NCBI GenBank assembly: GCA_002359495.1
Contig: DENB01000054.1
Location: 1 to 56,225 of the forward strand
Length of the DNA stretch: 56,225 nucleotides
Direction of reading: 5' to 3'
Origin: Enterobacteriaceae bacterium UBA2655
Lineage (GTDB): Bacteria; Pseudomonadota; Gammaproteobacteria; Enterobacterales; Enterobacteriaceae
Positions 20,438 to 22,646 of the stretch are shown piece by piece; the first letter of the stretch is position 1, and each line of letters opens with the position of its first letter. A program made the translations under genes and the position numbers. Under the pieces are notes generated by a model that saw only the letters and a list, made by a program, of their open reading frames with translations, made no database searches and was not told the DNA's origin.

Positions 20438-20731
20438 CTGTTTATCGCGCGACGCTCCAGATGCCTCAGTGGCGCGCTTCAGTCTATCGCGAAAACAGGC
20501 GCCGCGCCTAAGCGTAAAATCGCGGTTCTGCATCGTGGAAGCGCTTACACGCGCTTGTTCTACCATATTTTTGGCACGGTCAGAACGCGAATTCAGGACA
20601 AATCCCGTAGCGGAATGATTATTTCTGTAACTCATGCGCTGGATCACAATATCATCTGACCGGGAAACAAGGGGTAAAACAGCGCAACGCGCAAGGACAG
20701 ATAAATGAACGCGCGCTTTTTTTGTCATACT
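20438..20731 (-). pseudogene. hexR: Remnant of the hexR regulator gene
   Basis: HexR is the RpiR-type repressor of zwf, edd and eda that responds to 2-keto-3-deoxy-6-phosphogluconate. On this strand a frame preserves unmistakable C-terminal HexR blocks in order: RSDDIVIQRMS, RAKNMVEQA, DFTLRRGACFRDRLKR and ASRDKQ. The N-terminal helix-turn-helix domain is gone, and roughly 45 residues are missing between the second and third blocks, taking most of the sugar-phosphate isomerase (SIS) domain. The position, between pykA and zwf and divergent from zwf, is that of E. coli hexR. No intact start or ribosome binding site exists. It is a decayed gene rather than a new one. Confidence 0.85.
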
Positions 20732-20898
20732 TTGCTGCCGGTCGGCTTTTGGCTGAGATAAAAAGCGCGAACAAAGGGGCAAAGCGCACGACCCATCACA
20801 CGGATGGACGCGATTGCGGCCACAGTTATCCGTGAGGATCACTTCGCGCGCCGGTTTACCCGGCGCGGGGAAAAAAGTACATTGTGTCGAAAGAAAAA

Positions 20899-20940
20899 TA
20901 CAATAAGGACCCGGCAGCCAGGGGCGCTCAGGCGCCGGGT
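20899..20940 (+). promoter_or_regulatory. zwf promoter -10 and leader hairpin
   Basis: TACAAT at 20899-20904 is a good -10 with a weak -35 (AGTACA, 20876-20881, 17 bases away). Just downstream ACCCGGC (20909-20915) pairs with GCCGGGT (20934-20940), putting a hairpin in the short zwf leader 24 bases before the start. No HexR operator (TGTAATTAAATTACA-like) was seen. Confidence 0.45.
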
Positions 20941-20964
20941 ATATCCTGCAACGAGGAGAGTAAA

Positions 20965-22440
20965 ATGGCGGTAACACAAACAGCCCAGGCATGCGATCTG
21001 GTGATTTTCGGTGCCAAAGGCGATCTTGCACGCCGGAAACTGTTGCCTTCCCTGTATCAGCTGGAAAAAGCGGGACAGATCCATGAAGATTCCCGCATTA
21101 TCGGCGTCGGCCGCGCTGAGTGGGATAAAGCGGAATATACCAAAGTCGTGCGTGAAGCGCTGGAAACCTTCATGAAGGAAAAAATCGACGAAGCGCTGTG
21201 GGATAAACTCAGCGGCCGCCTCGATTTCTGCAACCTTGACGTTAACGACACGACGCATTTCCCTAAGTTGGGAAAAATGCTCGATCAGGAAAACCGCGTC
21301 ACCATTAACTATTTCGCCATGCCGCCAAGCACCTTCGGCGCCATCTGCAAAGGGCTGGGCACCGCCAAACTGAATGCGAAACCGGCGCGCGTCGTAATGG
21401 AAAAACCGCTGGGCACCTCGCTGGAAACCTCTCAGGAAATCAACGACAGCGTCGGCGAATACTTCGACGAGTGTCAGGTATTCCGTATCGACCACTATCT
21501 TGGCAAGGAGACGGTGCTCAACCTGCTGGCGCTGCGCTTCGCCAACTCCATTTTCGTCAATAACTGGGATAACCGCACCATCGACCATGTGCAGATTACC
21601 GTGGCGGAAGAGGTGGGCATCGAAGGCCGTTGGGGCTACTTCGATAAAGCGGGCCAGATGCGCGACATGATCCAGAACCACCTGCTGCAGATCCTGACCA
21701 TGATCGCCATGTCGCCGCCGTCCGATCTGGGCGCCGACAGCATTCGCGACGAAAAAGTGAAGGTGCTGCGCTCGCTGCGCCGTATCGACCAGACTAACGT
21801 GCGCGACAAAACCGTGCGCGGGCAATATACCGCCGGTTTTGTGCAGGGCAAAAAAGTGCCGGGCTATTTGGAAGAAGAGGGTGCCAACAAATCCAGCGCC
21901 ACGGAAACTTTTGTGGCGATCCGCGTCGATATCGATAACTGGCGCTGGGCGGGCGTGCCATTCTATCTGCGCACCGGCAAACGTCTGCCGACCAAATGCT
22001 CGGAAGTGGTGGTTTACTTTAAAAACCCGGAGATGAACCTGTTCAAAGATTCTTATGCCGAACTGCCGCAGAACAAGCTAACCATCCGTTTGCAGCCTGA
22101 CGAAGGCGTGGATATCGAAATCCTGAACAAGGTGCCGGGGCTGGATCACAAGCACAAGCTGCAAACCACCAAGCTGGACCTGAGCTACTCCGAAACCTTC
22201 AACCAGTCGCATCTGGCGGATGCCTACGAGCGACTGCTGCTGGAAACCATGCGCGGCATTCAGGCGCTGTTCGTGCGCCGCGACGAAGTCGAAGCCGCGT
22301 GGACCTATGTCGACTCCATCATGAACGCCTGGGCGGCGGATGCCGATGCGCCGAAACCTTACCAGGCGGGCACTTGGGGGCCGGTCGCTTCCGTCGCGAT
22401 GATCACGCGCGACGGCCGTTCCTGGAACGAGTTTGAATAA
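20965..22440 (+). CDS. zwf: Glucose-6-phosphate dehydrogenase
   Basis: First enzyme of the oxidative pentose phosphate pathway; makes 6-phosphogluconolactone and NADPH. The start MAVTQTAQACDLVIFGAKGD equals E. coli, giving 491 residues, with GAGGAG just upstream; a longer frame adds 27 unsupported residues. The NADP-binding motif is FGAKGDLARRKL (15-26) and the active site RIDHYLGKE (174-182). In E. coli zwf is followed by edd and eda; here edd is missing and a strong terminator closes zwf, so 6-phosphogluconate made here can only go to the pentose phosphate branch unless edd lies elsewhere. Confidence 0.98.
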   Translation: MAVTQTAQACDLVIFGAKGDLARRKLLPSLYQLEKAGQIHEDSRIIGVGRAEWDKAEYTKVVREALETFMKEKIDEALWDKLSGRLDFCNLDVNDTTHFPKLGKMLDQENRVTINYFAMPPSTFGAICKGLGTAKLNAKPARVVMEKPLGTSLETSQEINDSVGEYFDECQVFRIDHYLGKETVLNLLALRFANSIFVNNWDNRTIDHVQITVAEEVGIEGRWGYFDKAGQMRDMIQNHLLQILTMIAMSPPSDLGADSIRDEKVKVLRSLRRIDQTNVRDKTVRGQYTAGFVQGKKVPGYLEEEGANKSSATETFVAIRVDIDNWRWAGVPFYLRTGKRLPTKCSEVVVYFKNPEMNLFKDSYAELPQNKLTIRLQPDEGVDIEILNKVPGLDHKHKLQTTKLDLSYSETFNQSHLADAYERLLLETMRGIQALFVRRDEVEAAWTYVDSIMNAWAADADAPKPYQAGTWGPVASVAMITRDGRSWNEFE

Positions 22441-22453
22441 GCATCGTTGAATC

Positions 22454-22480
22454 AAGCCCGCCTCGCGCGGGCTTTTTTTT
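22454..22480 (+). terminator. Terminator after zwf
   Basis: Stem AAGCCCGC / GCGGGCTT with a five-base loop and eight T in all after the stem. It separates zwf from eda, unlike the zwf-edd-eda arrangement. Confidence 0.88.
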
Positions 22481-22504
22481 GCCGTCCTTATGCCGTTGAC
22501 GAAA

Positions 22505-22523
22505 AATGAACCCCGGTTTCAAA
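22505..22523. promoter_or_regulatory. Possible KdgR operator upstream of eda
   Basis: AATGAACCCCGGTTTCAAA resembles the KdgR consensus (AATRAAAYGRCRTTTYATTT-like) with its TGAA and TTTCA arms, 124 bases before eda. eda is a known KdgR target in related bacteria, and kdgR lies in this window at 48965. The match is imperfect in the centre. Confidence 0.4.
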
Positions 22524-22646
22524 AATATGCGATGTCGGATAGACGACGGCGAAAGCGATCATGTATGGTAGTTCTGCAAATTCGCAGGGCAGGGCCGTGC
22601 GTCCGAAAGCCGGGCTTTTCATCCGGTCAGATCAAAGAGGGGAAGT

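Follow-up and report, generated by a model that had tools for sequence, protein, structure and literature searches.

In the window (the whole 56,225-nucleotide stretch that was analysed, from the Pantoea-like Enterobacteriaceae bacterium UBA2655), pykA lies on the minus strand (18857–20317; open reading frame as listed, with homology to E. coli PykA from 20299) and zwf on the plus strand (20962–22440; the listed open reading frame starts further upstream, at 20884, and homology to E. coli Zwf begins at 20965). These two divergent genes are separated by 665 bases, compared with 1360 in the sister locus L002. A terminator-like hairpin with a T run (22454–22474) follows zwf, in agreement with the terminator of its own that a preliminary description had given this gene. 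Next comes eda (22647–23285, plus strand), with no edd separating it from zwf.

Between pykA and zwf, the position of hexR in E. coli, a minus-strand frame (20360–20764) matches the model for HexR, an RpiR-family regulator (NCBIfam NF008451; E = 3.7e-9; 36.5 bits, cut-off 296), best over profile positions 157–198 of 286. Synteny and significant residual similarity together identify a hexR pseudogene, confirming the decayed HexR blocks that had been described here. Based on DNA alignment with intact relatives, the window keeps hexR codons ~159–204, from which 9 nt after codon 193 have also been deleted, together with 48 nt of codons ~253–268. Codons ~1–158, with part of the region preceding them, and codons ~205–252 are absent, in agreement with the missing HTH domain and the internal deletion already described. 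Without its DNA-binding half and with little of the sugar-binding domain remaining, the remnant has no single open frame that encodes both HTH and SIS domains and passes the curated cut-off, and it cannot be a HexR. Used as a query against the window's own genome, it matched a single place. We did not identify a second hexR in this assembly, which is 91.75% complete; the other NF008451 matches reach at most 125.9 bits (cut-off 296) and were taken for RpiR-family paralogues.

The preliminary description read the locus as a collapsed Entner-Doudoroff control unit, in which the regulator, its operators and edd decayed together. In the window hexR is indeed broken, edd is absent between zwf and eda, as had been stated, and the zwf operator is degenerate. 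Nor was edd (TIGR01196 over cut-off) found elsewhere in the assembly, where absences carry the caveat of 91.75% completeness; the sole match (G000:C43, 230 bits against a cut-off of 708) was taken for ilvD. The operator had been reported as missing, but a degenerate HexR-type operator, CGAAAGAAAAATACA, is visible before zwf (20888–20902, plus strand), with 10 of 15 positions matching TGTAATTAAATTACA, which we take to be the HexR operator consensus. Scores before zwf are 12–15 of 15 in many HexR-bearing loci and 9–11 in some HexR-bearing Pantoea. Operator loss does not track HexR loss cleanly; HexR-bearing loci of the P. agglomerans type score 9–10 too.

Comparison of the locus among relatives, proposed as a way to date the losses, does time them, and it does not support a simultaneous loss. 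None of the 36 same-genus genomes encodes edd over the cut-off, while 30 encode HexR over the cut-off (in G035 split into two pieces). Among 49 genomes reached via named loci, a set that overlaps the first, edd was found over the cut-off in three (the Cedecea control, Erwinia sp. ErVv1 and E. oleae) and HexR in 38 (E. psidii has a partial match only). Erwinia sp. ErVv1 and E. oleae have no edd between zwf and purT/eda; their edd lies elsewhere in the genome (loci L037 and L039), not beside zwf, pointing to relocation or re-acquisition. The tree (55 rows for hexR, 54 for edd) calls for at least 7 state changes of hexR and 3 of edd; of 7 independent hexR pairs, 0.4 on average also differ in edd. 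Thus, the losses of the two genes do not coincide, and the claim that they were lost together is not supported. In edd-less Pantoea the dN/dS of hexR outside the retained block is 0.008–0.134 (eight pairs), indicating purifying selection, and the window's sister L002, edd-less itself, has an intact hexR that contradicts a joint collapse. Because the genus and most related genera lack edd while hexR there is mostly intact and under purifying selection, joint decay is unsupported and a collapsed unit is highly improbable; edd was lost earlier, and hexR later and repeatedly. In Enterobacteriales HexR acts as a local regulator of zwf, according to a regulon study (PMC5343134), so an edd arm that could decay along with hexR may not have existed.

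Loss of kdgK (KDPG supply) was also considered as a cause of hexR loss and rejected. In raw counts kdgK is missing in 8 of 13 hexR-less rows versus 2 of 37 others (p = 8.6e-5; L011, with broken hexR and kdgK, and L064, with a frameshifted hexR, scored as lost, and L015, L044, L051, L066 and L082 left out). On independent pairs the association is not significant (median p 0.25), and the window's genome keeps kdgK. In Tatumella (L033–L036), hexR and kdgK are missing and eda lies away from zwf.

The larger part of the remnant is a block at 20534–20661 (minus strand; codons ~159–204) that is 9 nt shorter than its intact counterpart and identical to the hexR of L002 at 101 of 137 positions. We infer that this block is an embedded cis-regulatory module. 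It contains, all on the minus strand, a piece A, GATATTGTGATCCAGCGCATGAGTTACAGAAATAAT (20618–20653), which agrees with most relatives at 33 of 36 letters; a piece D, AAAAATATGGTAGAAC (20557–20572), with a -10-like TATGGT; and, at the block's end, a GalR-type palindrome of the form GTGTAAnCGnTTCCAC. What the window has lost within the block is 9 nt between piece D and the palindrome and 3 of the 36 letters of piece A. Over 20290–20990, we detected no consensus sigma-70 promoter.

Regulatory elements embedded in coding sequence constrain silent sites through a second, nucleotide-level function. The retained block coincides with such a silent-site freeze in intact Pantoea hexR. At degenerate codons whose amino acid is invariant, a single codon is used at 20 of 34 positions inside codons 159–204 and at 8 of 131 outside (p = 7e-11). 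This set comprises the 19 loci that have both the palindrome and a whole hexR; P. ananatis and P. allii, which an earlier, looser silent-site set had included, were excluded as palindrome-less. The same freeze is seen in 12 further genomes, some of them closely related to each other (20 of 35 inside versus 14 of 156 outside, p = 2e-9; three of 15 intact hexR were removed as already in the first set). The lowest value over any 46 codons of hexR is reached at codon 158 and amounts to 0.43 of the gene's mean, compared with lowest values of 0.54–0.83 in zwf, pykA, lpxM, purT and eda. In intact host genes, the silent-site constraint is thus confined to the block.

Silent-site dips also occur in hexR of other groups. 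In Erwinia and Winslowiella, codons ~147–168 dip to 0.22, compared with 0.48 overall (11 loci), over GATATTGTGATGCAGCGCATGAG, which suggests that piece A could predate the module seen in Pantoea. In Enterobacteriaceae, a dip lies near the 3' end, at codons ~257–275 (31 loci).

The block survived each of three separate hexR decays. One is that of the window, whose sister is L002 (starred support of 100; 93 in a shorter zwf tree). L028 and L029, on the P. dispersa side, have a broken hexR and retain nearly the same piece (codons ~162–204). L098 (genome G068), placed with the hexR-intact L007 at an unstarred support of 90, has hexR pieces in different frames with stops and has kept the block. In P. 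stewartii (L012), which belongs to a clade without the module, hexR loss left no block.

A block that had merely escaped deletion would also resemble its relatives if the decay were recent. Consistent with such a neutral fossil, the window keeps a second piece of hexR, DFTLRRGACFRDRLKR (20474–20521, minus strand; codons ~253–268), that bears no sign of function, is not seen in L028/L029 and has mostly unfrozen silent codons; we read it as an ordinary fossil. Other loci (L099 and L112) also carry young hexR frameshifts. However, the third positions of the block were kept selectively. In the window, 17 of 17 positions that are frozen in 28 others are retained, versus 5 of 16 variable ones (p = 2.3e-5), or 6 of 16 when L002 is included in the comparison (p = 8.7e-5). 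The corresponding values are 23 of 23 versus 10 of 21 in L098 (p = 4.6e-5), 22 of 23 versus 12 of 19 in L028 (p = 0.01), and 22 of 23 versus 14 of 19 in L029, which alone is not significant (p = 0.056). In addition, conservation between L028 and L029 is limited to the block: over 50-base windows they are 88–96% identical across it (starts 351–476), compared with 44–80% before it (starts 176–326) and 68–86% after it (starts 501–651), with 88–98% at the zwf end. The constraint therefore persists once the host gene is non-coding. Together with the recurrence of the same block in three decays, this argues against a neutral fossil, which we regard as improbable, and selection very probably acts on the block.

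The palindrome in the window, GTGTAAGCGCTTCCAC (20535–20550, minus strand), matches GTGTAANCGNTTNCAC at 13 of 13 positions and is the only exact match in its genome. The full palindrome occurs in 22 of 78 loci: 19 loci of the clade with a whole hexR, the window, the decaying L032, and L051, in which it precedes hexR and lies outside the gene. L028 and L029 score 12 of 13, and P. eucrina, which retains no hexR, reaches 11 of 13 at two places; the best scores in P. ananatis, P. allii, P. stewartii, Mixta and Erwinia loci are 8–10 of 13. A palindrome of the LacI type (ATGAAATCGTTTCCAC or a variant) is found ~320 bases from zwf, just before an intact hexR, in Enterobacteriaceae loci that include L051, where it matches at 13 of 13 positions.

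The exact GTGTAANCGNTTNCAC pattern is present somewhere in 24 of 29 genomes, and 11 of 12 inspected exact sites outside hexR are found at a galP-like gene next to metK (assigned by eye; the exception is L141). With up to one mismatch allowed, the pattern occurs at eight places in the window's genome (5 and 6 strand hits, versus 1 and 1 in a backwards control): in the hexR remnant, before galT, a galP-like sugar porter, a GalR-like gene and an aldo/keto reductase gene, and at three positions without clear context. Several of these sites recur in the genomes of L002, P. agglomerans and P. ananatis. The operators of gal genes bound by GalR/GalS have the same GTGTAANCGNTTNCAC form, with like sites before the galT, galP-like and GalR-like genes here and in relatives; the window's site differs from these in lying inside hexR codons and upstream of pykA. 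The GalR-like protein of the window's genome scores 466.5 bits, below the model cut-off of 557, its stored sequence being partly masked. Given the 16-bp palindrome, this protein and the gal-gene sites in the same genome, we somewhat favour GalR as the factor acting at the palindrome. We rejected glk as a GalR target, since the site near it belongs with the aldo/keto reductase gene and relatives have the site there without a nearby glk. A conserved GTGTATACGTTTACAC palindrome precedes the aldo/keto reductase gene in the window's genome (G000:C45, L152) and in three relatives.

Nearer to pykA, 93 bases before the gene, is a CRP-type site, TGTGAGTCGAATCACA (20377–20392, minus strand). A perfect site 92–94 bases before pykA occurs in 21 of the 78 loci, and 20 loci carry it together with the full palindrome (of 22 and 21, respectively); the 21st locus with a perfect CRP-type site is L028. 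The tabulated co-distribution covers 17 of 19 loci, L096 and L107 having been dropped by a filter. Nine of 10 letters of the site are present in L029, L032 and L098, and 6–7 of 10 in P. ananatis, P. allii, P. stewartii, P. eucrina and Mixta. In P. stewartii, P. ananatis and P. allii (L012, L016 and L019), the hexR-pykA spacer has given way to unrelated sequence with no CRP-type site or palindrome.

Conservation of the block could also have another reason: it could control zwf or hexR itself, contain an antisense gene, or encode a small RNA or a small peptide. It lies between two divergent genes, pieces A and D match no assigned factor, and in both the window and L028 the hexR frame stays open across the block. 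In L029, an in-frame stop within the block indicates that the thing kept is not a peptide, and antisense frames are not open throughout. For an RNA, the covariation term is 0.07, with two-sided change in 1 of 22 pairs, and a search of Rfam gave no match. Thus, fold, Rfam search and reading frames lend no support to an RNA structure, an Rfam family, a peptide or an antisense frame. As for zwf, the GTACATTGT anchor on its side also occurs in P. ananatis, Mixta and P. eucrina, all without the module, while the distribution of the module follows the CRP-type site on the pykA side. Another function for the block is rather unlikely on this evidence, and pykA is the likely target of the module. The old hexR sequence had been described as a shared upstream region of pykA and zwf. 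This holds for pykA, where it would serve as a conserved element, and not in the sense of mere spacer. The module is not indispensable, as P. eucrina, which lost both block and CRP-type site, and the P. ananatis group live without it.

We therefore propose no shared collapse of a pathway, and instead that in the Pantoea clade, apart from the P. ananatis group, the hexR frame also holds a cis-regulatory module upstream of pykA (codons ~159–204). The module would consist of a GalR-type operator and the further conserved pieces, with the CRP-type site nearer to pykA. After edd was lost, hexR would have become dispensable; it was lost several times, and in three lineages, including the window, the coding sequence decayed while selection on the DNA would have kept the module. 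The sequences themselves show the remnant, the independent losses, the silent-site freeze and the keeping of the frozen letters, and action on pykA, binding by GalR and the sign of the control are predicted from them. Control would most likely involve GalR repression relieved by galactose, with activation by CRP. Judging from the comparative sequence data, we give roughly 60% to the reading that a pykA control module embedded in hexR outlived the gene; the more specific version, in which hexR codons doubled as a GalR-type, CRP-linked module and outlasted the gene in three lineages, has about even odds.

The silent-site constraint resembles that of embedded elements in general; in this case, the host gene was lost on three occasions and the element remained. 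The zwf-eda locus of Pectobacterium carotovorum shares with the window an eda without edd, and in the accessible part of its description hexR is present beside zwf-eda, with no mention of an embedded element (PMC7814964). We found no literature on a link between GalR and pykA, including in the accessible portion of PMC4052901. Titles and abstract beginnings, from a search that left subscription journals mostly outside, gave no report of hexR decay in Pantoea, of GalR at pykA or of a bacterial element outliving its gene.

Pseudogenes in bacteria tend to be regarded as debris. The debris of hexR looks like selected DNA, with bounds that follow the freeze in the living copies. Silent-site conservation in intact genes, combined with what remains after decay, would offer a general and computable way of finding control elements hidden in coding sequence, with gene erosion acting as a natural deletion experiment that maps the module. 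For this widespread genus, the module suggests an unsuspected regulator of pykA, and if the reading is correct, galactose sensing would be wired to the last step of glycolysis.
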